From contig CP073750.1 of the NCBI GenBank assembly GCA_024398135.1, forward strand, positions 3,286,001 through 3,350,000: 64,000 nt of DNA, in the 5' to 3' direction. This stretch comes from a bacterium SCSIO 12643. GTDB lineage: Bacteria > Bacteroidota > Bacteroidia > Flavobacteriales_G > Salibacteraceae. Shown piece by piece: positions 15,004-27,764 of this stretch. Position 1 is the first letter of the stretch; each line of letters opens with the position of its first letter. The position numbers were made by a program, and so were the translations under genes. Below the pieces are notes generated by a model that was given only the letters and a program-made list of their open reading frames with translations, was not told the origin of the DNA and did no database searches.

Positions 15004-18000
15004 TTGAAGAATTTGGCCAGTCAAAAGAAATTCGGTTTTTTCGGAGGGGTATTTACACCATCTATTCTTACGATCCTAGGGGTAATCATGTACATGAGGT
15101 TAGGCTGGGTGGTAGGACATGCTGGCTTAACCGGTTCCATCGTTATTATTCTAATTGCCCATGTGATATCCATAGCTACCGGATTGAGTATTTCATCTAT
15201 TGCAACGAATAAGAAAGTCGGTGCAGGTGGTGTATATTATGTGTTGTCCAGAAGTTTAGGCCTTCCAATGGGTGGTGCCATAGGGTATACCTTATTTGTC
15301 GCTACATCATTTAGTATTGCGCTTTATCTTATCGGTTTTGCCGAGAACTTTAATCCTGTTTTAGGGATGGGATCAACAATCAATGATTTTAGGGTTTCCG
15401 GAACATTGGCGTTGTTGTTACTTACTATTCTGGTTTATATCAGTACTTCTGTAGCCATTAAATCACAATACTTAATTCTTGGGGCGATTACTTTATCACT
15501 GGTCAGTGTTTTCTTAGGAGATTTAAGTGGGGTTGAAGTAGCTGGCAATATTACAGGGCCAGAACAAGAAGTTTCGTTTGCATTGTTGTTTGGAATATTC
15601 TTCCCGGCAGTTACGGGTTTTACCGCTGGAATTGCAATGAGTGGAGATTTGGAAAACCCAAAAAGAGATATTCCAATTGGTACCATGTTGGCCATTGGTG
15701 TAGGGCTTATTATTTACATTGGACTGGCAGTATTCTTGAGTTTGGGAGTAGATGAAAATCTATTGCAATCCAATTATAATATATTAATGGATATTGCATT
15801 GTTTGCTCCATTGGTAATTGCAGGGATTTGGGGAGCGACATTGTCTTCTGCTTTGGGAGGATTACTTGGGGGGCCAAGGATTTTCCAGGCAATGAGTATC
15901 GATAATATTACGCCTTATTCTAAGATGTTTGCGCATGGTTCTGGGAAATCAAATGAACCACGAAATGCATTGATCTTAACCATTATTATCGCGGAAATAG
16001 GTGTGCTTATTGGGGAGCTAGATGCCATAGCCAGATTGGTGTCCATGTTTTACCTGATGGGGTATAACTTTATTAATCTTTCTTTTTTCCTTGAGAGTTG
16101 GGCCAATAGCGACTTCTCTCCTAAATTCAAGGTAAGTAGATGGGTAGGTGCTATAGGTTTTATTGCCACTTTTACGGTAATGTTTCAAATTGATCCATTA
16201 GCTATGGTGTTGGCGTATATGGTATTGTTTGGAACCTATTTTTTCCTGAAGCGAAAAGAAATGAGTTTAAATTCCGGAGATATTTGGGGGAGTGTTTGGT
16301 CCTCCGTGGTAAAAGCCGGACTTAAACGAATGGACGGTATTGAAGAGAATCAAAATTATTGGAGACCTAATATCTTGTTATTCTCCGGGGGGACGGATAA
16401 AAGACCTCATTTGATTGAAATATCCAAAGATCTTGGTGGACGTTCTGGAATGATTTCAAACTTTGATTTGATAGAAAGTCCTGATGCAAAAGTATTGTTT
16501 CCTAAAAAGGATAAAGGTGTGAAAAACGCAGATATCCGAGCAGATGGGATTTTTACAAGAAGGCAGGAAGTTAAAGATATTTATACGGGAATTGAAACGA
16601 TTGCCAGTGTATATGGATTTTCGGGTATCGAGCCGAATACGATATTAATGGGATGGGCAAGGAATACAGAGTTTCCTAGTCAGTTTGCAAGTTTGACGCA
16701 GTCCTTAATTGATTTGGATTACAACGTTCTATATTTAGATTATGATGAAAAGAGAGGGTTTGGCAAATATGAAACGATAGATTTATGGTGGAGAGGAATC
16801 AGTAATAATGTGATTCTGACCATCCGATTGGTGAAATTTGTTCTCTCTTCTCAAAGATGGGCAAATGCCAATGTTCGGGTTATTTTGGTAAATGATGATA
16901 AAACCGAGCGTAGACAAATTCAGGAAAGTATTACTTCAATCTTAGCTGAATTCAGACTGCAAGCGGAGATTAAAATCATTAATAATAGTGTAGAAAAACT
17001 ATCGATTTTTGATTTGATGAAACACTATTCGCAGTATGCAGACTTAGTGTTTTTAGGCGTTCCTGATCGTATTGATGATGTAGAAACGTATGTGTCTAAA
17101 ACCAATAACCTGTTGGATAATATCGGAACAACTTTAATGGTACGAGCATCATCTCAGTTTTCTGAGATAAGCCTTGGATTTAAACCAAAGGCTAGAAAAC
17201 AGGTAGGTGAGATTAAGTTATTTACATTAAAGAAAATTGATCTTCCTTTTGAGGCCAGTGTTAACCGATATTTTCAAAACCTGGAAGAGCGGTTATTTAA
17301 AAGCAACCAGATATTTACACAAGGTGGAGTTTCAGTAATTATTGGAGCCTATGTCCATATATTTGAGAAGTATCATTCTATATTCAATACTTTCTTTGAA
17401 AGAATAGAAGAGAAGAAAAGCGCTACGGTTTTTAAAGAACAATTTCTGATTTTACATCAGGAAACCATGGGTACTTTGAATGAATTCCTGGAGGGGCAAA
17501 CCGATCATTTGGCGGCACTATTAGATGATGAAATTGATAAATGGGCCAACAGAAGACAGGGAATTTTTTCTAATAATCCGGAAAATTTTAAGCGAATATT
17601 GTCCGAAGAAGAACTTGTTGGCCATAGAAGAGATGGTTCGGAGGCGAAGTGGGTGAAGTTTGAGAAGAGATGGGTACATCGTATTTTCGGAAGAGCATCT
17701 TTGACCATTGATTGGAGAGATCTTTTAATGTATTATGAGGCAACAACCAATTTGGTTGATATTAAGAAAATGCTTCATGATCTGGGAATGATTGAAGCAT
17801 TGAATATCAAAGCGCTTCGCGAACGTACAATGATTGTAATTGAGGAATTATTGGATAATATAATTCTGGAACCCGAGAAAAGAACCGTTCTGGTTAATAA
17901 TGCAAAAAAACAAGTGAGTACAGGTTTGATGGATCAAATAGAATTTATCAAGCAAAAACCTGAGCAGCTTCTGAGTACAGCGAATTACAGAGATCGGGAA

Positions 18001-20088
18001 ATGATTTTGAAACTGGTGGAGTTAGTGAAACGAATGGATGCTAACGCCATTATTGAAGATTTAGACGAAGATCTTAATGTCGCGCAAATGCGAAAAGCCA
18101 GGAATCAAATTCTGGACTTTTCGACATTTTGGAGTCGCAATCAAAAGTTGTTTGGTAATTTATTCCAGACCTGGGTGGTGACCACCAGATTGCATGTTGA
18201 GTTGGTGTTTTTAAAAGAGAAGGTAGCCAGAGATGCAAGAATGGAGGTGTTTGGGATTTTTAAAAGAGTATCAAAACATCTGGATCAACTACTGGTAAAC
18301 TCTGATGAAGCAAAGGAGAATACAAGAATATCCAACTTTGATGAAAATGAACTATTGAGTCATAATCCATCGGAGTTTTTGAGTCGTGTACATGAGGAAA
18401 TGCGTGATAGTATTGCGAATTTACCCGAATCTATTGATTTAATTAATGAAGATTCCATTCTCAATTTCGAAGATTTTCAGGAAGAGGATGTAGAACAGGT
18501 TACGATTGATTTGCAAAAGATTGCAGATTACTATCTGGAACTGGACTTTATTGAACCATTGAACAGACGAGTTACACATTCATATAATGTGGTTACAACC
18601 AAGTTTGAAGAAATGGGAAATAGAATTTCCTATATCAATCAATTATCTGAAAGTAGCGCTCAAGAATCGGTAAAGCAAGCTGCTCAATTGAAAGAAAAAC
18701 TCGCAGCAGATATATTGGAACTCAATCAACTTATTGATAATACCGAAATAGAATTTGTATCCATGTTGGAAAAACAGTTCTCGGAATTATCCTCAAAATT
18801 GAGTGTATCAGAGTTATTAACGACTTCGAATAGTTTAAGTCGATTTGTTCATATAAAACATGGATATCAAGGTATTTTTAAACGAATTGAGACGGTTAAA
18901 GCGTATACCTCAAAATTGTTATCCAACTCTATTTTTGAAATTAAGAGAAAACAACATCAGTTAAGATTAGCTGAGTTTAATGAGCGAAATAAAACGTTGG
19001 TAAATAAGCGAAAAATGTTTAGAAATTTCGTTGAAGCCAATGCGATGAACGAGACTGTTGCGACAAATTTACCGACTTATTATCGTCATTTGTTTTCTGG
19101 TAAGCAGGTGTTTAATAAACAATCTGCAATAGATCGTGATTTTGAAATTGATCAGGCTGTTGCTGCTTTAAATAAAGGCGAGACCGGAGGAGTACTGGTG
19201 ATTAGTGAACCGCTGGCAGGTAAATCGCATTTTGTAGAGACTATGTTGCATCAAATTAACCCGATGCGAATTGTTAGGGTATTGCCTCCTCCACAAGGAA
19301 TTAATGAGAACTCTGAATTGTTAACTGCATTTCAAAAGTCAACAGGACTTGAAGGCAATTTCTTTAATATCATGAGTTCGTTGCCAGAAGGAACCGTTTT
19401 TACCTTTAATAAACTTGAGTTGTGGTGGCTCAGAAAAAATAATGGAGGAAAGTTTATTGATCAGTTGGTTTGGTTGATTGAACGATATGGGGAAAGACAC
19501 AGATTCATTTTGACTATGAATATCTATGCGTATGATATTATTCGTCAGGTAACCAATTTGGATTCTGTATTGGCTGCGACTATTATATTACCACCAGCAA
19601 ATAATAGAGCACTGAGTGAATTGATGCTGAACAGACATCAATTAGCTGGAGTTGATATTCTATTTGAAAATAAACCGGATAAGAAACCAACGCATAGAGA
19701 ATTACTGAAGCATTTTGAAAAGTTTGCAAATGGTGCGAATGGAAATATAGGTGTGGCTATGTTGAGGTGGTTAGCAAGCATTAAACGATATGAGGATGAT
19801 ACGGTGTATGTGTCTGCGTATAAAGAGCAGAAATTACCTTCTTTATTTCCAATAACCTGGGGTGTTTTGCTCACGCATATTGTATTGCATGAAAAGTTGC
19901 ATTTAAATAATATTCTGGAAATATTTGAACTTCAGGATAAAGCGACTGTACATAGAGTTGTTAAAGAATTATTGTATACGAAATTGATTAAAGAGGATTC
20001 GAAGAATACGTATATGATTGAACCATTGGTTTTAAAGTGGGTGATAGAACAGTTGAAAACCCAAAACTATTTGAATAAATACGAATGA
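15004..20088 (+). CDS. SLC12-like cation-chloride/amino acid cotransporter fused to a helical, P-loop-like and winged-helix region
   Basis: 1694 residues, far longer than any simple permease. Residues of about 8-415 hold some 12 membrane segments that begin FFGGVFTPSILTILGVIMYM, the N-terminal signature of the cation-chloride cotransporter (SLC12) family, with GAGGVYYVLSRSLG in the next helices. Residues of about 450-725 resemble the SLC12 cytoplasmic domain (RPNILLFSGG, ILMGWARN, RVILVNDD). About 780-1370 is mostly helical and charged. At 1400-1408 a Walker A-like ISEPLAGKS lacks the first glycine, and at 1465-1472 VFTFNKLE sits where Walker B would be. About 1610-1694 looks like a winged helix. 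The start is TTG, since an in-frame stop directly precedes it and the first ATG lies inside TM1. It overlaps the next gene by 4 bases (ATGA). Transport specificity is unknown. Confidence 0.82.
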   Translation: MKNLASQKKFGFFGGVFTPSILTILGVIMYMRLGWVVGHAGLTGSIVIILIAHVISIATGLSISSIATNKKVGAGGVYYVLSRSLGLPMGGAIGYTLFVATSFSIALYLIGFAENFNPVLGMGSTINDFRVSGTLALLLLTILVYISTSVAIKSQYLILGAITLSLVSVFLGDLSGVEVAGNITGPEQEVSFALLFGIFFPAVTGFTAGIAMSGDLENPKRDIPIGTMLAIGVGLIIYIGLAVFLSLGVDENLLQSNYNILMDIALFAPLVIAGIWGATLSSALGGLLGGPRIFQAMSIDNITPYSKMFAHGSGKSNEPRNALILTIIIAEIGVLIGELDAIARLVSMFYLMGYNFINLSFFLESWANSDFSPKFKVSRWVGAIGFIATFTVMFQIDPLAMVLAYMVLFGTYFFLKRKEMSLNSGDIWGSVWSSVVKAGLKRMDGIEENQNYWRPNILLFSGGTDKRPHLIEISKDLGGRSGMISNFDLIESPDAKVLFPKKDKGVKNADIRADGIFTRRQEVKDIYTGIETIASVYGFSGIEPNTILMGWARNTEFPSQFASLTQSLIDLDYNVLYLDYDEKRGFGKYETIDLWWRGISNNVILTIRLVKFVLSSQRWANANVRVILVNDDKTERRQIQESITSILAEFRLQAEIKIINNSVEKLSIFDLMKHYSQYADLVFLGVPDRIDDVETYVSKTNNLLDNIGTTLMVRASSQFSEISLGFKPKARKQVGEIKLFTLKKIDLPFEASVNRYFQNLEERLFKSNQIFTQGGVSVIIGAYVHIFEKYHSIFNTFFERIEEKKSATVFKEQFLILHQETMGTLNEFLEGQTDHLAALLDDEIDKWANRRQGIFSNNPENFKRILSEEELVGHRRDGSEAKWVKFEKRWVHRIFGRASLTIDWRDLLMYYEATTNLVDIKKMLHDLGMIEALNIKALRERTMIVIEELLDNIILEPEKRTVLVNNAKKQVSTGLMDQIEFIKQKPEQLLSTANYRDREMILKLVELVKRMDANAIIEDLDEDLNVAQMRKARNQILDFSTFWSRNQKLFGNLFQTWVVTTRLHVELVFLKEKVARDARMEVFGIFKRVSKHLDQLLVNSDEAKENTRISNFDENELLSHNPSEFLSRVHEEMRDSIANLPESIDLINEDSILNFEDFQEEDVEQVTIDLQKIADYYLELDFIEPLNRRVTHSYNVVTTKFEEMGNRISYINQLSESSAQESVKQAAQLKEKLAADILELNQLIDNTEIEFVSMLEKQFSELSSKLSVSELLTTSNSLSRFVHIKHGYQGIFKRIETVKAYTSKLLSNSIFEIKRKQHQLRLAEFNERNKTLVNKRKMFRNFVEANAMNETVATNLPTYYRHLFSGKQVFNKQSAIDRDFEIDQAVAALNKGETGGVLVISEPLAGKSHFVETMLHQINPMRIVRVLPPPQGINENSELLTAFQKSTGLEGNFFNIMSSLPEGTVFTFNKLELWWLRKNNGGKFIDQLVWLIERYGERHRFILTMNIYAYDIIRQVTNLDSVLAATIILPPANNRALSELMLNRHQLAGVDILFENKPDKKPTHRELLKHFEKFANGANGNIGVAMLRWLASIKRYEDDTVYVSAYKEQKLPSLFPITWGVLLTHIVLHEKLHLNNILEIFELQDKATVHRVVKELLYTKLIKEDSKNTYMIEPLVLKWVIEQLKTQNYLNKYE

Positions 20089-20834
20089 CAGATTTAGAGC
20101 AAATAAAAATAAATGCGTTCCAAATAGAAATTGTATTTGTAGTAGGATTGGCTTTGTTGCTGACTTATTTGGTCATTCGTTTGATCAAAAGGTATCTATT
20201 TGTTTTGGTTAAATCTGAGTATTGGATTCAGAAAATTGAGGACTCCTGGCCAAGACTTGAATTGATTATTTGGTTTCTGATTGGGCTTATTTTACTCGTT
20301 TATATGCTCAATAATAGTTTTCTCATAACATTGGTGTTACTGGGTGTGATTTTCCTTGTGGGGGGGAGGTATTGGCGTGACGTTTTAAATGGGGTGATTA
20401 TTAAGTTTGAGAACCGAATAGCTAAAGGTGATTTCCTGTCTAATGACCAATATGCCGGAGTTATTGTTGATTTGGGATATCGAGGGTTACAAATTCGTAT
20501 GGATAAGGGTGAGATAGGGTATATTCCATATCGAGGTTTAAGCGATTATAAGGTACGTAAACTTGAAAGGGATTTAAAGAGTGAAATGTGTGCTATCGCA
20601 GTGAAGTTTAAACCTGAAATATCTGTAGATGCAGCGATTCAGAAATTGAAAGTTGAAATACTTCAAATTCCATATACGATGCTTACAAAACCAGTGAAAA
20701 TTGAAGTGACAGATTTGGATGACTCCGGAATAAACCTTAGAGCCATTGTGTATACGCAGAATTCAGAAAGTGGTAAACTGGTAGAAGTAGCGTTATTTCA
20801 GAATTTAAGAGCGCAGAAGCTTTTGATAGATTAA
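20085..20834 (+). CDS. Small MscS-like membrane protein
   Basis: 249 residues. Three hydrophobic segments (about 15-33, 55-73 and 78-95) are followed by a pore-helix-like stretch GGRYWRDVLNGVIIKFENRI and then KGDFL. This parallels the MscS pattern in which TM3 runs into the beta domain (FERPIRVGD in canonical members). The beta domain (GVIVDLGYRGLQIRMDKGEIGYIPYRGLSDY) and a short alpha/beta C-terminus follow. MscS channels open under membrane tension and release solutes. Small members can also be partners rather than channels. Translation is probably coupled to the SLC12-like gene through the ATGA overlap, which strongly suggests a joint role in ion or volume homeostasis. Confidence 0.78.
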   Translation: MTDLEQIKINAFQIEIVFVVGLALLLTYLVIRLIKRYLFVLVKSEYWIQKIEDSWPRLELIIWFLIGLILLVYMLNNSFLITLVLLGVIFLVGGRYWRDVLNGVIIKFENRIAKGDFLSNDQYAGVIVDLGYRGLQIRMDKGEIGYIPYRGLSDYKVRKLERDLKSEMCAIAVKFKPEISVDAAIQKLKVEILQIPYTMLTKPVKIEVTDLDDSGINLRAIVYTQNSESGKLVEVALFQNLRAQKLLID

Positions 20835-20837
20835 ACC

Positions 20838-21890
20838 TTACTTAACTTCATTGTTATAGTAGACTTTGTAAAAATTCATTTCTTTTTCGTGGTCATACCC
20901 TTGTTCAATAAACTTATGCGTTGAATCCGGATTGTTTACCGCAATTTTAATTTGGATATTGGTGTCTAGTTTGATTTCGTTTTTAATCTTCTTTTTCTGC
21001 TTTTCCACGACCGGTAATGAAACAGGGAAGGCATCAGGAATGGCCACACCATGCTGTGATTCATACATAGATTTGTATTGGTCAAATTCCTGCTTTTTTT
21101 CGTCATCTACCAGAATTTCATCCTTGAATTCTTCAATGTCAATATTTTCATTTCGCTCCAGATATTTAACAGACTTGTTTAAGAAGTTGATTTCTTCCGT
21201 TTTGTTCTCGGTGGATTGGATAACTTCATTGGCAAAGCCTTTACAAAGGTTTACATACTCTTTGGTATGGAATACTTCATCTTCAGTTGGACGAATTCCT
21301 AAAAACTCATTAATCCAGTATTCCGTATCATAATTGTTGCTATCTACCGAAAATACACTATAACCATTTTCTTCATGGATATTGAAGACAAAGCACCCTT
21401 TATCTAGTTTCTTAATGTCGATTCCTTTTTGTTCTAATAACTCAAGATTAGAATCTTCCTGGCCAATTTGTAAAAAGGAAGTTTTATTCTCAGATTTAAA
21501 AATACCCACTGCCGAAACCATTTTATCCTGATATAATATATCATCAAAATAAGCTACAAATAAGTCTCCTGTTTTGATATGCGGATGCTGACTTTGTTCA
21601 TGAAGATGCTTTAGAATTTTTACAGAATTGATGTATAAAGAATTTGGGTCTTCAAAAATATCCTTACAAATTCCGTTCAATTCATTGTATGACAAATCAA
21701 TTTCATGGGTAAATTGATTAGACTCCTGCAAATTCATAAAGGGTTTTACGAAATAATCTAAAATCATTAAACTCAATCCATCCGTAAGTTGAAAAGGGCT
21801 TTGCGAAATGAAAAAATCTTCTTCGTTGTGTTTGTTTCCAACACGATGAATAACCAGTTCTTTAATATCTACAGTAGAAAAATCTAACAT
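20838..21890 (-). CDS. Nucleoid-associated protein (NdpA/YejK-like)
   Basis: 350 residues, soluble, no signal peptide. The N-terminus (about 1-25: IKELVIHRVGNKHNEEDFFIS), the GDLFVAYFDDILY segment, and the later FLGIRPTEDEVFHTKEYV block match the 37-kDa nucleoid-associated protein family (NdpA). Members bind DNA and are found on the nucleoid; their precise role is poorly known. A TACATTTG box on the minus strand (21917-21924) lies 26 bases upstream of the start. The gene is convergent with the MscS-like gene, with only three bases between stop codons. Confidence 0.85.
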   Translation of the reverse strand: MLDFSTVDIKELVIHRVGNKHNEEDFFISQSPFQLTDGLSLMILDYFVKPFMNLQESNQFTHEIDLSYNELNGICKDIFEDPNSLYINSVKILKHLHEQSQHPHIKTGDLFVAYFDDILYQDKMVSAVGIFKSENKTSFLQIGQEDSNLELLEQKGIDIKKLDKGCFVFNIHEENGYSVFSVDSNNYDTEYWINEFLGIRPTEDEVFHTKEYVNLCKGFANEVIQSTENKTEEINFLNKSVKYLERNENIDIEEFKDEILVDDEKKQEFDQYKSMYESQHGVAIPDAFPVSLPVVEKQKKKIKNEIKLDTNIQIKIAVNNPDSTHKFIEQGYDHEKEMNFYKVYYNNEVK

Positions 21891-21927
21891 ATTTATACTT
21901 CCTTGATTTGAGCTGTCAAATGTAATG

Positions 21928-22995
21928 TTATTGGTTTTGGGTTTCCATGAAATTTGTAACTAAATATACCCAATTTGCCTCTTCACGATTCAAAATAGAT
22001 TCATGACCTGATTTTCCGAAAGTTGCAAGTTCTTTATAACCATCTAAATGATCAAATATACTTTTGGTTTCTTCCCAGGATACACGATTATCCAATTGAC
22101 CATGGATTAAAAGAGTAGGGCATTTGATATTTTTTGCATAGTCTTTTGGATTATGGGAAAAAGCATCAAAATCATTGATGTAGCCACCCCAAAATGTAAG
22201 TAGATGTGCAGAAGGAAATGAAGGAACCTCCATAAGCTTAAAACGAGATTTAGCGGCTCCTAACATTGAAGCAAATGGACTTTGAAGCATAATAGCATCA
22301 GGGGTAGTTTTCAAATCTGAAACGGCTCTCATAATTGCAGCAGCACCCATAGAAGCACCATATAAGAAAACTTTTTGATCAGGATATTGAGTTTCGCACC
22401 AGTTGGTAACTCTTTGAACATCCTCAGCTTCGAAATAACCAATACTACAAACATAACCTTCTGAGTTTCCGGCTGCCCTAAAATCAACAAGAATTACCGA
22501 ATACCCCATACGGTAAAATGCCAGGGCTTCTTTCCATAAAGAAGATTTTGAAGCGCGGTACCCATGAAAAAGAGCCACAATACCTTTTGAGGGTTCCATG
22601 TCGAGTTTCCATATTTCAAGATCAAATGTTCCTGGAATCGTATCAATTTCTACAAAATCAAAATCAATTTTTGAGTTTGTAGGTTTAGAAGTAGGAATAC
22701 CATAGATCAAAGCGTTGGCTTTTACACTAAAGGAAGAATCTTCCAAGTTTAAAATTCGATCATGTCTTTCTGATGTGAAATGAGTGAATTTTTCTGCGTG
22801 ATTTCTGGCTATGATATTAAGAAATACAAAGGCTACAACCAAAACAACAAAGCATAGAATAAACGGCTTTTTTAGTTTTAACCAGATATTTTGTAAACTG
22901 AGTTTCACAAGATCAATACTACATAAAAAATGTAGAAAATAGATGATACAAAATACGAATAAAAAATCTGTGAAAGAATGGCTCAACCCTTTCAA
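21928..22995 (-). CDS. Membrane-anchored alpha/beta hydrolase
   Basis: 355 residues with two N-terminal hydrophobic segments (about 8-28 and 43-62), then an alpha/beta hydrolase domain facing the periplasm or cytoplasm. The oxyanion motif is LFHGYRASKSS, and the nucleophile elbow is GASMG, with Ser in LYGASMGAAAIM. The acid is probably the Asp in LIHGQLDNRVS and the base the His in GKSGHES, so the full triad is present. The layout resembles BEM46/YfhR-like serine hydrolases. The substrate is unknown. The gene lies 37 bases upstream of the nucleoid-associated protein gene on the same strand. Confidence 0.83.
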   Translation of the reverse strand: MKGLSHSFTDFLFVFCIIYFLHFLCSIDLVKLSLQNIWLKLKKPFILCFVVLVVAFVFLNIIARNHAEKFTHFTSERHDRILNLEDSSFSVKANALIYGIPTSKPTNSKIDFDFVEIDTIPGTFDLEIWKLDMEPSKGIVALFHGYRASKSSLWKEALAFYRMGYSVILVDFRAAGNSEGYVCSIGYFEAEDVQRVTNWCETQYPDQKVFLYGASMGAAAIMRAVSDLKTTPDAIMLQSPFASMLGAAKSRFKLMEVPSFPSAHLLTFWGGYINDFDAFSHNPKDYAKNIKCPTLLIHGQLDNRVSWEETKSIFDHLDGYKELATFGKSGHESILNREEANWVYLVTNFMETQNQ

Positions 22996-23303
22996 AATAA
23001 TGTTTCAAAAAATGTCTATTTTAAGTAATTGTTAACAATTATATATGTTAACGTGGGCTAATTCCTTGACAAATGGGGAAGTAAAAATTAAATTTGTCGG
23101 TTGAGCAATAAGAATGATTAATTTAAAACCTTTATAAAATCTATGATTATATAAATTATCCAATAACCTAATGTAACAAAATCGGGGCCCCTAGTTGGCA
23201 AAATTATCTTACATCTCAAATCTGTTTTGAGATGCGCTGTCGTGTCTGTGATATTCTGACAGCACCACGTTATCTTTTTAAAATAAAATCAAAAATAGAG
23301 TGT
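22996..23303. other. Intergenic region with promoter and two hairpins upstream of the T9SS surface protein
   Basis: 308 bases without an ORF of note. It holds a full promoter match (23066-23096), an eight-base palindrome GGGGCCCC (23184-23191) and two adjacent inverted repeats: CATCTCAAA at 23212-23220 with its complement at 23226-23234, and GCTGTC at 23236-23241 with GACAGC at 23258-23263. If the promoter is right, these lie in a leader of about 200 bases. Confidence 0.55.
23066..23096 (+). promoter_or_regulatory. Predicted Bacteroidota promoter for the T9SS type A surface protein
   Basis: TTG at 23066-23068, 20 bases, then TAAATTTG at 23089-23096, which is a full match to the consensus. 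Transcription would begin near 23101, leaving a leader of about 200 bases before the ATG at 23304. Confidence 0.55.
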
Positions 23304-26300
23304 ATGAAAAAATTTAAACTCTTAGGGGTTCTTATGGGACTTCTATTAACCGGTCAGTTTGCTTTTTCGCAAGCAGGATCGACATTTAGCAATCCTCAGG
23401 TAGTGAGTGCCTTGCCTTTTGTGGCTGTAGGTGATTCAACTTGTGGCTATGGTGATAATTATGATACGGGTGATATTTCGTGTACAGGAAATTATCTTGA
23501 CGGTGATGAAAAGATTTACAGTTTCACACCTAGTTCTAATATCTCCAATTTTAACGTTGAGTTAACCAATATTGCAACTTCATGGTCAGGTATATTTATT
23601 ACTGATGATTCTACAACTTCAGGAAACTGTTTAGGTAATGTAGGATCAAGTGGGACCTCCACCAGAGGAGTGTACGGTGTGTCTTTAACAGCAGGAACTA
23701 CATATTATATTTTGGTATCTACTTGGGCAACACCACAATGTATTACTTCATATGACATTAATATGTACTCCATTTCATGTCCTGAACCAACAGCTTTAAC
23801 TGTAACAGGTATTACAACTTCAACGGCTCAATTGGGTTGGACAGAAGCGGGTTCTGCAACATTATGGCAATATGAATATGATACTGCAGGGTTTACTCAA
23901 GGAACTGGTACTATTGATACGACTTCTTCAAACCCATATACAGCAACATCTCTTACTTCTGCAACAGATTATGAGTTTTATGTAAGAGCGGTTTGTGGTG
24001 CTGGTGATACGTCAGATTGGGCAGGTCCTTTTTCTTTTGTGACTTCTTGTAACCCTACTGTAGCACCAATGACAGAATCATTTGATGGAAATTCAACTCC
24101 AACATGTTGGTCTCAGACTGCTGTAACTGGAGGACCTTGGGTTTTCTCTGGTTCACCAGATTATGGTGCATCTTCAGCTACTGATCATACTGGAAATGGA
24201 GGGAGTTTTGCATGGATGGATCAATCTAGTTCGGATGAAGCTGTATCATTAATTATGAATGATGTTGATGTGAGTGCATTAACTACTGCTTATTTGAAGT
24301 TTTATTATTACGTGAATAATGTAGATAATAATGATACAAATGACTTGATTATTGAAGCATGGAATGGATCTGCTTGGGCGCAAGTTGATTCTCTTCATGT
24401 AAATAATGGTGGTTGGACGCCTTATTGGTATGATTTATCTTCATTCACTTATGGTTCTAACCTTGTTAAAATTAGATTTAGAGCTGAATCAGGTGGTGGT
24501 ACAGGTGATTATTACCAGGATCAACTTTTAGATGATGTTTCTGTAATGGAAATGCCATCATGTTTTGAGCCTTCTGCTTTAACATTAGATAACATGACAT
24601 ATTCATCTGCGACAATGTCATGGACTGAAAATGGTTCTGCCACCTTATGGCAGTTTGAGTATGATACTGCTGGATTTACTCAGGGTACAGGGAACATGGA
24701 TACAACATCTATGAACCCAGGAACAATTACTGGTTTAACACAATTGACTGATTATAACGTATATGTAAGAGCAATTTGTGGTGCCGGTGATACTTCGATT
24801 TGGGCAGGTCCAATTAGTTTCTCAACTCCACCTTCTTGTCCAGCTCCGGATACTTTAGAGGCTACGGATATTACATTAACAACTGCAAATTTAAACTGGT
24901 CAGAAATGGGATCAGCAACATTATGGCAGTATGAGTATGATACAACTGGATTTACTCAAGGTACAGGAACAATGGATACAACGTCAATGAATCCTGCATC
25001 AATTACAGGTTTAACTCCGGAAAAATTCTATCAATTCTATGTGCGTGCGATTTGTGGCGCAGGTGATACTTCTACCTGGACAGGACCGGTTTCTTTTTAT
25101 ACCGGATATTGTGTTCCAAATCCAAGTAGCGTTGATGGTGATGGGATAACAAATGTTTCTATGGATACAGTAAATAATACCACAGGTGCTGAACCAGGAA
25201 ATTATGGAAACTATACCAACTTAATTGCAAATGCGCAACAACAAACTAACCTGGCGATTGATATTACGTTAGCTACTGGTTATACTTATAACATGTGGGC
25301 GTTTGTAGACTGGAATAATGATTTGGATTTTGATGACGCTGGTGAGCATGTTTATTTAGGTGAATCTACAAATGCAAACCCAACTGTTTACAGTGCAGTA
25401 CTACCAATTCCAAGTACCGCTACTTTAGGTCAACATAGATTAAGATTAGGTGGTTCTGATAGTGGCCTTGGCTCAACTGCTCCATCTGATCCATGTTATA
25501 CAGGATCTTATGCTTCGTTTGAGGATTATACATTAAATGTATTACCTCCTCCATCTTGTTTTGCTCCGGATTCTCTTGATGTTACTGCTGTAACTAATTC
25601 AACAGCAACATTAACTTGGACACAAATCGGATCTCCTGCATCATGGCAAATTGAATGGGATACAGCTGGTTTTACTCCTGGAACAGGAACTATCACTCCG
25701 GCTTCATCAAATCCATTTACATTGACTAACTTAGATGCAAATGAAAACTACGAGTTTTATGTAAGAGCAATTTGTGGCCCTGCAGATTCTTCTGTGTGGT
25801 CTGGTATGATGAGTTTCTCAACTGCAATCGATACTATTATGACTTTCCCATACATCAATGATTTAGAATCAGGTTTAGGATTGTATATGGGATTAAGAGA
25901 CTCTGCACAGTCTTATGCTGGTGTAGATACTGTAGCTGATAATGCGAGTACTTATGGGGTATTATTAACTGGTAAGACATCAACTGGTTGGTCAGGTGGT
26001 AGTACATCTACTACTGAAACGCAAGCGTTTGTAAATAACTCTTCACATATCTCTGGTATTGATATGATTGTGGATGCAACTTCATTAACATCATTGGAAT
26101 TACAGTATGATTTAAAACAAACATATACTTATGGAAATAAGTATTCATGGACTCGTGTTTTAGTAAATGGAACTCAAGTAGGTTTAAGTGTAAACCCAAC
26201 TACTGATGATAATGATCCATTTGTGACTATGTCTGTTGATTTATCCTCTTATGCTGGAACATCATTTAGTCTTTCCATTGAGCACTCAGGTAAATATGAT

Positions 26301-27764
26301 GTAGCAAATGGAACTGGTGGAAGAGGTGATGATGCTTATGTTGATAATGTAAAACTATTTGTACCTCTAACTGCAACTGCTGTGGTGGATAGTAATGTTA
26401 CATGTAACGGAATGTCAAATGGTGGTGCCACTGTAACGGCTACTAATGGTGTGATGCCATATATTTACTTATGGAGTAACTCTGCAACTACAGCTTCAAT
26501 TACTGGTGTAACTGCTGGTACTTATGATGTAACTGTATCTGATGCTGCAGGTGATAGTGTGATGACTTCTGTAACTATTACTGAGCCAGGACAAGTTGTT
26601 GTTTCTTTAGGAAACGACACCAGTATTTGTGTGAATGATTTACTGACTCTTGATGCAGGAGCTGGTTTCTCTTCATACTTATGGGATAACGGTGCAACTA
26701 CGCAAACTAGAATTGTAAACAGTACAATGGCTGCTTCAAATGCTTATTCTGTTATAGTGACAGATGCAAATGGATGTAACGGTTACGATACAGTAAATGT
26801 GGATGTGAATGCACCAATGATGCCTAACTTAGGTAATGATACAACCATCTGTTACGATGCTACGTTAGTATTGGATGCAGGAGCTGGTTTCAACTCTTAT
26901 TTATGGGATGATGCTTCTACATTACAAACTAGAGATGTAGTTGGAGCAACTGTAGGTTCTGCTGTTCATACAATGTATGTAGCAACAACTGATGCAAACA
27001 TGTGTACAGGTACGGATACTATTATTGTAACTGTTGATGCTGAAATCACTGTAGATTTAGGAAACGATACAACGGTTTGTTCTGGAACTACATTTGACTT
27101 AGACGCTGGCGCAGGTTATGCTTCTTACTTATGGGATGATCTTTCTACTTTACAAACCAGAACTGTAGCTACTAATGCTGCTGGAGCAACTAATTATTCT
27201 GTAATAGTTACGACAACTGCTGGATGTATTGGAACAAGTACAATCGAAGTAACAGGTAGAGCTCCTGTTGTTGTTGATCTAGGTCCTGACACTACAATTG
27301 GCTGGTGGGGAGCTGATACAACTTATACGCTTGATGCTGGTGCTGGATTCGCTTCTTACTTATGGAGTGATAATGTAACTACAACTCAAACTTTTGTTGT
27401 GAATAAAGACAACATGGGATTAATTGGAGTTGTTGTAACTGATGCAAATGGATGTATTGGTACGGATACTGTAAGAGTTGACTTCTTATTAAGTGTTCCT
27501 TCTTTTGATGTGAGTACTTTGAAAATGTATCCAAACCCAGCTTCTGATCTAATCAATATTGAAATGTCTAACTTTAACAATGTAGACGAAGTAAACGTTA
27601 AGTTTATCAGTATTACAGGTGAAGTTGTATTAAGAAGACAAATCAATGTGAATGCTGGAGCATACCAGGAAACATTTGATGTTTCTCATTTAGCTACAGG
27701 AACATATTTTGTTCAATTCGAAGCTAAAGGTGAAGTGGTTACACGTAAGTTTGTTATTAAATAA
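23304..27764 (+). CDS. Large T9SS-secreted surface protein with fibronectin type III, GEVED and SprB-like repeats
   Basis: 1486 residues from the ATG at 23304, which gives the signal peptide MKKFKLLGVLMGLLLTGQFA; a frame extension upstream would bury it. Domains in order: fibronectin type III at about 160-250, a MAM/jelly-roll-like segment (250-415), type III repeats at about 420-510 and 512-600, a GEVED domain (about 600-745, FVDWNNDLDFDDAGE), a fourth type III repeat (750-845), another MAM-like segment (850-1020), a SprB-type repeat (about 1026-1095, ending in TYDVTVSDAAGDS) and several LGNDTSIC-type Ig-like repeats. The C-terminus (about 1403-1486) is a T9SS type A sorting domain: LKMYPNPASDLINIEM, ending in GTYFVQFEAKG and RKFVIK. 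It is probably an adhesin or matrix protein at the cell surface. No catalytic domain is visible. Confidence 0.92.
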   Translation: MKKFKLLGVLMGLLLTGQFAFSQAGSTFSNPQVVSALPFVAVGDSTCGYGDNYDTGDISCTGNYLDGDEKIYSFTPSSNISNFNVELTNIATSWSGIFITDDSTTSGNCLGNVGSSGTSTRGVYGVSLTAGTTYYILVSTWATPQCITSYDINMYSISCPEPTALTVTGITTSTAQLGWTEAGSATLWQYEYDTAGFTQGTGTIDTTSSNPYTATSLTSATDYEFYVRAVCGAGDTSDWAGPFSFVTSCNPTVAPMTESFDGNSTPTCWSQTAVTGGPWVFSGSPDYGASSATDHTGNGGSFAWMDQSSSDEAVSLIMNDVDVSALTTAYLKFYYYVNNVDNNDTNDLIIEAWNGSAWAQVDSLHVNNGGWTPYWYDLSSFTYGSNLVKIRFRAESGGGTGDYYQDQLLDDVSVMEMPSCFEPSALTLDNMTYSSATMSWTENGSATLWQFEYDTAGFTQGTGNMDTTSMNPGTITGLTQLTDYNVYVRAICGAGDTSIWAGPISFSTPPSCPAPDTLEATDITLTTANLNWSEMGSATLWQYEYDTTGFTQGTGTMDTTSMNPASITGLTPEKFYQFYVRAICGAGDTSTWTGPVSFYTGYCVPNPSSVDGDGITNVSMDTVNNTTGAEPGNYGNYTNLIANAQQQTNLAIDITLATGYTYNMWAFVDWNNDLDFDDAGEHVYLGESTNANPTVYSAVLPIPSTATLGQHRLRLGGSDSGLGSTAPSDPCYTGSYASFEDYTLNVLPPPSCFAPDSLDVTAVTNSTATLTWTQIGSPASWQIEWDTAGFTPGTGTITPASSNPFTLTNLDANENYEFYVRAICGPADSSVWSGMMSFSTAIDTIMTFPYINDLESGLGLYMGLRDSAQSYAGVDTVADNASTYGVLLTGKTSTGWSGGSTSTTETQAFVNNSSHISGIDMIVDATSLTSLELQYDLKQTYTYGNKYSWTRVLVNGTQVGLSVNPTTDDNDPFVTMSVDLSSYAGTSFSLSIEHSGKYDVANGTGGRGDDAYVDNVKLFVPLTATAVVDSNVTCNGMSNGGATVTATNGVMPYIYLWSNSATTASITGVTAGTYDVTVSDAAGDSVMTSVTITEPGQVVVSLGNDTSICVNDLLTLDAGAGFSSYLWDNGATTQTRIVNSTMAASNAYSVIVTDANGCNGYDTVNVDVNAPMMPNLGNDTTICYDATLVLDAGAGFNSYLWDDASTLQTRDVVGATVGSAVHTMYVATTDANMCTGTDTIIVTVDAEITVDLGNDTTVCSGTTFDLDAGAGYASYLWDDLSTLQTRTVATNAAGATNYSVIVTTTAGCIGTSTIEVTGRAPVVVDLGPDTTIGWWGADTTYTLDAGAGFASYLWSDNVTTTQTFVVNKDNMGLIGVVVTDANGCIGTDTVRVDFLLSVPSFDVSTLKMYPNPASDLINIEMSNFNNVDEVNVKFISITGEVVLRRQINVNAGAYQETFDVSHLATGTYFVQFEAKGEVVTRKFVIK

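Follow-up and report, generated by a model that had tools for sequence, protein, structure and literature searches.

A bacterial gene pair that joins an NKCC-type transporter to an AAA+ domain and an MscS-like protein

Why would a bacterial cation-chloride cotransporter carry roughly a thousand extra residues, and what is an MscS-like gene doing directly behind it? The question is raised by a locus of the bacterium SCSIO 12643 (Bacteroidota, Salibacteraceae), in a stretch of 64,000 nucleotides that we call the window (contig CP073750.1 of assembly GCA_024398135.1, positions 3,286,001 to 3,350,000; feature coordinates below are those of the window). The host genome is a single contig of 4.1 Mb and is 97.9% complete. 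On the forward strand, the open reading frame at 15004-20088 encodes 1694 amino acids with an NKCC-type SLC12 transporter, about 650 helical residues, an AAA+ domain and a winged helix. The next frame, 20085-20834 on the same strand, encodes a 249-residue partner with the MscS fold, and the stop codon of the first gene and the start codon of the second overlap as ATGA (20085..20088, +). Chance is ruled out as the origin of this layout because the same arrangement recurs across many genomes. With moderate confidence, we believe that an ATP-binding switch and an MscS-shaped, probably non-channel sensor set the activity of the transporter within one membrane complex.

The fusion protein

The transmembrane domain takes up residues 1-415 (15004..16248, +), where PF00324 matches residues 16-419 (E 1.8e-46; 159 bits against a cut-off of 24.6). 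The cation-chloride cotransporter cytoplasmic domain follows at residues 416-689 (16249..17070, +; borders approximate), with a PF03522 match at residues 589-665 that is just above its cut-off (27.9 bits, cut-off 27.0). TIGR00930 spans residues 5-678 (E 5.9e-114), and its 382 bits are far under its own cut-off of 953; two fused relatives score similarly (380 and 392 bits). The closest solved structures to the window transporter are SLC12A2/NKCC1 chains (E 1.1e-78). By these sequence matches, the N-terminal 690 residues are a cation-chloride cotransporter. The frame begins with TTG at 15004, immediately 3' of a stop codon, and there is no ATG near the start. Since a second TTG, at 15013, is the start kept in a same-genus genome (L041), it is likely the true start, and a product of 1691 residues is more likely than one of 1694.

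For zebrafish NKCC1, an excerpt of PMC9784483 gives the ion ligands as Tyr305 and Thr420 (K+), Ser538 and Ser539 (Na+) and Tyr611 (Cl-). We placed these sites on the window protein through alignment with solved NKCC1 chains, and the equivalents are Tyr108, Thr204, Ser281, Ser282 and Tyr354. The window protein is predicted to carry Na+, K+ and Cl-, because all five side-chain ligands are invariant in 62 of the 62 SLC12 domains compared (54 from single-frame fusions, 3 from split frames, 1 cut by a contig end and 4 unfused).

A Pfam search of the window protein found no domain beyond residue 665, so the P-loop and the winged helix rest on a structural model and on relatives, some of which have weak AAA matches (AAA_22 is above its cut-off in L055). 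We modelled residues 675-1694 with AlphaFold2 using 66 sequences (mean pLDDT 84.2). The model has long helices up to about residue 1330, where the last stretch with pLDDT below 50 lies, and then a confident AAA+ domain and winged helix. The top Foldseek match of the model was Orc2 of A. pernix (E 1.4e-7), with low TM-scores, since the match is to one domain of a long model. VIA-align also ranked A. pernix Orc2 first (Z 15.5, rmsd 5.4, 309 aligned), together with other Orc1/Cdc6 proteins; TnsC and NSF reached Z 14.2. A sequence-profile search of the PDB with the 1020-residue C-terminal part gave weak matches only, and the fold came from AlphaFold2. As modelled, the C-terminal part is an AAA+ core followed by a winged helix, with Orc/Cdc6 proteins only slightly ahead of TnsC and NSF in similarity of fold.

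The long-helix middle in the model covers residues 690-1345 (17071..19038, +) and is common to a class of relatives that are fused to an antiporter. The helical middles of the SLC12 and antiporter fusions are homologous (hhalign probability 98.3, E 1.6e-14, 536 columns), and the similarity to the soluble class spans 161 and 226 columns. The AAA+ domain nearest Orc1/Cdc6, placed by the model, fold matches and alignments, lies at residues 1356-1605 (19069..19818, +; borders approximate), and the C-terminal winged helix, placed by the model and VIA-align, at residues 1617-1686 (19852..20061, +).

Alignment of SLC12-class rows places Walker A at residues 1401-1408 (19204..19227, +) and a degenerate Walker B at residues 1465-1472 (19396..19419, +). 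The window keeps Walker A; across the class its Lys is present in 65 of 67 rows and its Ser/Thr in 67 of 67. The usual AAA+ Walker B motif is Asp-Glu, and this does not occur in the SLC12 class, where the first position is Asn in 37, His in 29 and Tyr in 1 of the 67 rows and the second is Asp in 65 and Lys in 2. The combination Asn-Lys is found in the window and its nearest relative. These motifs suggest that the AAA+ part of the SLC12 class is an ATP-binding switch whose hydrolysis would be weak or absent.

The MscS-like gene and its pairing with the ATPase

The partner gene (20085..20834, +) matches PF00924 with 28.9 bits against a cut-off of 20.2. Its AlphaFold2 model (pLDDT 91.6) has three membrane helices, a beta domain and an alpha/beta domain, and a profile of its family matches residues 30-241 of E. 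coli MscS (E 1.7e-13). The 50 Foldseek rows shown were all of the MscS superfamily (E 7e-12), with TM-scores of about 0.3; our guess is that a different angle between the domains, or the absence of the ring from the model, keeps these scores low. On the model, the partner has the MscS fold. A preliminary description of the locus, made from the letters of the sequence, had proposed an SLC12 transporter fused to its cytoplasmic domain and a helical region, with a P-loop-like segment and a winged-helix-like end, and an ATGA overlap with an MscS-like gene. All of these are confirmed by the Pfam, TIGR00930 and VIA-align matches and the two models, including the P-loop fold and winged helix beyond residue 1380.

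How widely does the module occur? At E 0.001, a profile of the ATPase module has matches listed for 389 of the 395 genomes sampled from the phylum, and almost all of these are background. We drew the line at E 1e-30 because the next listed match is at E 5.6e-9; matches below the line are mostly partial, in frames of some 850 codons. Of the 395 genomes, 76 have a member at E 1e-30 or better. An SLC12 match occurs in 84 of 395 (at most three candidates were scored per genome), and among the SLC12 frames listed only four reach 1687-1712 codons, the remainder having 305-860. Both are present in 52 genomes, a count that is confounded by kinship. A scan of named genomes with one ATPase motif, which therefore favours the SLC12-type class, found 95 relatives, of which 80 were kept. 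As these were found with the ATPase alone, we rejected the idea that the fusion is an oddity of a single genome. Relatives of the ATPase occur in Bacteroidales, Cytophagales and Flavobacteriales, and also in records named Ignavibacteriota, Rhodothermota, Calditrichota, Latescibacterota and Myxococcota (Enhygromyxa salina and Plesiocystis pacifica). Cultured bacteria among the carriers include Plebeiobacterium sediminum (L141) and Agaribacillus aureus (L163). The same-genus relatives of the window include records named uncultured Flavobacteriales (L109, L110).

To count pairings, we took 121 loci: 40 hand-picked from profile and protein-search matches, 80 from the motif scan and one (L206) from the follow-up of unfused SLC12 genes. 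Leaving out six on contigs seen twice (L039, L040, L042, L043, L047, L048) and L041, which has no ATPase module, gives 114 distinct loci; some genomes contribute two. The query was the ATPase only, with no MscS sequence, and the two genes were neighbours at 104 of the 114 loci, with the MscS-like gene no more than 450 bp away and on the same strand. By class, 61 of the 63 SLC12 fusions and all 6 antiporter fusions have the pairing, as do 27 of the 31 loci that are not fused in a single frame and 10 of the 14 that a contig end cuts. Three loci with SLC12 in a separate frame (L144, L159, L162) are non-fused in these counts and carry SLC12 as a hand label in the trees below. The MscS gene is downstream of the ATPase at 98 of the 104 paired loci and upstream at 6, and at 30 loci the MscS match starts within 12 bp of the end of the ATPase frame.

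The ten loci without an MscS-like gene within 450 bp are L044, L057, L096, L097, L107, L175, L176, L177, L186 and L188. The contig of L044 stops 243 bp past the ATPase, and L057 has an MscS match 1260 bp away. At L096 and L097, where a short ATPase precedes an antiporter gene, a membrane protein of 185-187 residues stands in the place of MscS (L096:7175-7729, L097:7172-7735); the L096 copy, which is the one we compared, has no detectable similarity to MscS (hhalign probability 0.6).

The MscS gene goes with the ATPase and not with the transporter. This follows from four unfused SLC12 loci, the three nearest (L203-L205, 52-57% identity) and the distant L207, none of which has an MscS-profile match within the 17-19 kb read for each, while most soluble ATPases that have no transporter do have one nearby. 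We therefore rejected the MscS gene as a partner of SLC12 as such. The distances among ATPases and among their MscS partners correlate (Mantel r 0.70, n=105; the maximum of 500 permutations was 0.10), a value to which relatedness alone contributes. L206 (7930-9216) encodes a minimal soluble ATPase of about 430 residues that lacks most of the helical middle, and an MscS-like gene still follows it; L050 has a similar short frame.

Transporters joined to the ATPase module

The relatives fall into four classes. The SLC12 fusions have open frames of about 1670-1840 codons where complete. In the second class, whose fusion proteins have about 1500 residues, the N-terminal part is an antiporter of the Na+/H+-exchanger family, a label given by PF00999 in L055 (E 3.7e-21) and by our own profile in L089-L093. 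In the third class, short soluble ATPases are accompanied by a separate antiporter gene (L045 and L056 by Pfam, L095-L097 by our own profile). In the fourth, MscS is the only companion of soluble ATPases, most of them about 1000 residues long. Outside L055, L045 and L056, the PF00999 label comes from a profile built on three sequences, and the subfamily name CPA2 would come from one below-cut-off match only (L055).

All six antiporter fusions share an order of five genes: a 414-residue membrane protein, the antiporter-ATPase, MscS, TrkH and TrkA (found by phmmer from the L089 genes; Pfam confirms TrkH in L055 and L089 and TrkA in L089). The membrane protein of about 414 residues that opens this operon (L089:12191-13456, L092:2727-3968, L055:11383-12624; also in L090, L091 and L093) is without a Pfam match in its L055, L089 and L092 copies, and the L092 copy also has none in the PDB. 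A further locus, L094, has a fused membrane part without an assigned family, with TrkH, TrkA and a relative of the 414-residue protein upstream. An antiporter-profile match also lies divergently upstream of 11 of the 63 SLC12 fusions. At L043 (2960-9489, on the same contig as L139), an ATPase-MscS pair is convergent with a set of MscS, antiporter and Ion_trans channel genes. In five loci (L144, L159, L162, L174, L179), SLC12 and ATPase parts, or pieces of SLC12, are in separate adjacent frames; these genes may be genuinely split, or the draft assemblies may contain frame errors.

We built quick trees with SH-aLRT support only, midpoint-rooted and with several long branches. One branch (SH-aLRT 97) separates the six antiporter-fused ATPases from the rest, and this branch sits in a group of 27 rows (SH-aLRT 100) that has no known SLC12 fusion, two of the rows being cut by contig ends. 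The SLC12 class is not one side of a branch in the ATPase tree and requires 10 changes, with contig-cut rows counted as a different label. Because the antiporter fusions branch off within a group that has no known SLC12 fusion, the simplest reading of the sequences is that the ATPase module captured two unrelated transporters separately.

What the pair may do

Excerpts of PMC3386975 describe TM3a of MscS as rich in glycine and alanine, call PN(X)9N a widely conserved motif and give N167Y of E. coli MscS as a loss-of-function mutation. The equivalent of TM3a in the window partner (residues 80-103; 20322..20393, +) is poor in Ala and Gly, and Pro-Tyr (residues 148-149; 20526..20531, +) replaces the Pro-Asn of the motif, with Lys at its other end, so that PN(X)9N is absent. 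Across the partners, the mean Ala/Gly fraction of TM3a is 0.18 in the SLC12 class (range 0.04-0.38, n=65) and 0.17 in both the antiporter-fused (n=6) and the antiporter-operon (n=3) partners. It is 0.38 in the soluble-ATPase partners (range 0.25-0.50, n=20), 0.35 in 20 neighbouring MscS proteins and 0.38 in the five others of the window genome, which has six MscS genes in all with the partner. The residue equivalent to N167 is Tyr in 60 and Asn in 1 of the 65 SLC12-class partners. It is Asn in 17 of 20 soluble-class partners, 19 of 20 neighbouring MscS proteins and 4 of 5 from the window's own genome. (The second, upstream MscS genes of L140 and L184 were assigned to the other MscS proteins in this comparison.) The three soluble-class exceptions (L114, L128, L139), with Tyr or Phe at this position, group with SLC12-class partners in the MscS tree, where the partners as a whole need 4 changes against other MscS.

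These substitutions suggest that, in partners linked to a transporter, normal pore function has been lost and the sensing shell remains. The preliminary description had proposed that the fusion may gate ion flux jointly with the MscS-like subunit. Gating by that subunit as a channel is unsupported, and a role as sensor or adaptor is more likely than one as a second ion path since the pore helix and PN(X)9N are changed in the SLC12-class partners. The link it drew to ion homeostasis fared better, because relatives of the module are fused to or stand beside Na+/H+-exchanger-family antiporters and TrkH/TrkA. It had offered, as a simpler alternative, a conserved Bacteroidota family; the pair is conserved, and it is not confined to Bacteroidota. 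As a whole, that interpretation is partly supported.

We propose that the two gene products form a membrane complex that adjusts the import or export of Na+, K+ and Cl-, with the SLC12 part acting as an NKCC-like cotransporter. The AAA+ and winged-helix part, on its long helical arm, would be a two-state switch that binds ATP and hydrolyses it slowly or never. The MscS-like protein is probably a multi-subunit membrane ring that no longer forms an ordinary pore; it would relay membrane tension, or crowding of the cytoplasm, to the switch, which in turn would set the activity of the transporter. In other lineages, a homologous switch and MscS module would serve a Na+/H+-exchanger-family antiporter with TrkH and TrkA, or would stand by itself beside an MscS channel of normal appearance, possibly its original state. 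More tentatively, with a probability nearer a third than a half, the MscS fold would be a non-conducting gauge of tension or crowding for an ATP-binding AAA+ switch, plugged at least two times into unrelated transporters and giving direct turgor feedback, at the level of the proteins, on salt transport of the NKCC and antiporter types.

Several observations weigh against this proposal. A divergent TM3a could still conduct, and the TM3a ranges of the SLC12 class and the soluble class overlap. The antiporter-fused partners retain the Asn of PN(X)9N in 6 of 6 cases, so the change in the pore helix alone is common to both fused classes. On the ATPase side, 10 of the 22 soluble-class rows keep the Walker A Lys and 12 do not, and all 5 rows of the antiporter-operon class have Asp-Asp in Walker B, which makes a single nucleotide mechanism for the whole family doubtful. 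Two of the 63 SLC12 fusions (L175, L176) have no adjacent MscS. Pfam does not find PF00999 in the antiporter-fused L092, where the label comes from our own profile and the operon. Finally, the module is patchy in the window's own family, where a single-protein search found it in 5 of 35 genomes.

The strongest rival, which we think unlikely, is a pump and leak in which the MscS-like channel works and releases ions, SLC12 imports them and the AAA+ switch balances both. The intact MscS fold of the partner fits it, as do the soluble-ATPase partners, most of which keep normal channel motifs. The altered pore helix and PN(X)9N of the SLC12 class speak against it, and the same Asn-to-Tyr change is the loss-of-function mutation of E. 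coli MscS cited above (PMC3386975).

We regard it as clearly less probable that the protein is a membrane-tethered gene regulator, with a DNA-binding winged helix and transcription controlled by transporter state or tension. The nearest solved folds do include the DNA-binding Orc/Cdc6 and TnsC. However, the winged helix of Orc-like and STAND ATPases is often merely structural, and soluble forms of the ATPase are tied to MscS as well, as the 27 of 31 loci not fused in one frame indicate.

A defence device, in which a STAND-like ATPase senses phage and sets off a lethal ion flux through its membrane partners, is less probable still. STAND-like ATPases with membrane effectors exist in defence, the relatives have weak AAA_22, nSTAND and mad8 matches, and the patchiness in the window's family would agree. 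However, PADLOC models match neither window protein. The window ATPase module has no match among 50,697 phage or 72,556 plasmid records, on which we also rejected a phage or plasmid origin. A hand count finds the module in 36 of the 45 genomes sampled from family f68, 4 loci share the same two flanking genes, and the module is tied to ion transporters. Last, that these are mere neighbours with no joint function has very little probability: the 10 of 114 loci without MscS within 450 bp, L044 with its early contig end among them, would allow it, but pairing at the other 104, a distance of at most 12 bp at 30 of these, and just six MscS genes in a 4.1 Mb genome argue against it.

A promoter scan found 26 candidates against 25.0 expected, that is, none above chance, and a terminator scan found none. 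A gene for an NA37 nucleoid-associated protein and one for an alpha/beta hydrolase (20838-22995) adjoin the pair, likewise in two same-genus genomes (L039, L040). Further on, 23232-27764 encodes a large secreted protein that matches fn3, GEVED, MAM and SprB and has a secretion domain (Por_Secre_tail) at its C terminus.

How does the pair compare with known systems? With NKCC1 (SLC12A2) and the prokaryotic cation-chloride cotransporters (TIGR00930, PF03522), the window protein shares the membrane and cytoplasmic domains and the five ion ligands, but it has about 1000 extra residues with the AAA+ switch, and the MscS-like partner besides. The partner shares the three-helix, beta and alpha/beta fold of MscS channels such as E. 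coli MscS and YnaI; unlike them, SLC12-class partners lack the Gly/Ala-rich TM3a and PN(X)9N and are tied to an ATPase gene. TrkH-TrkA and Ktr follow a similar principle, in which a cytosolic nucleotide-binding part sets cation transport. The part here is AAA+ and not RCK, and the pair is not a member of that group, although TrkH and TrkA genes are present in the antiporter-class operons. Bacterial cyclic-nucleotide-gated relatives of MscS (bCNG) likewise have a cytoplasmic regulatory element; the pair here differs in its degenerate pore helix and in having a separate AAA+ protein as regulator. The bCNG group is named in the references of PMC4560390. The AAA+ and winged-helix fold is common to the window protein and to Orc1/Cdc6 and STAND/TnsC-type ATPases, but in the SLC12 class Walker B is degenerate, and the AAA+ part is fused to a transporter. 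We found no description of the transporter-ATPase-MscS layout, or of a regulator of the kind proposed, in the open-licence PMC literature, where loose search terms make this a weak test of absence, and excerpts of PMC9784483, PMC4301019 and PMC4230888 contain no mention of such a fusion. The components are known, and the assembly appears to be new.

Most of what is known about the coupling of salt transport to turgor in bacteria concerns dinucleotide signals and channels opened in an emergency. The conserved pair described here ties an NKCC-type cotransporter to an ATPase-like switch and to a membrane protein of MscS shape, and related modules would serve other cation transporters. The proposal predicts a role for the MscS fold other than that of a channel, and may offer a bacterial model for volume control in the NKCC family.

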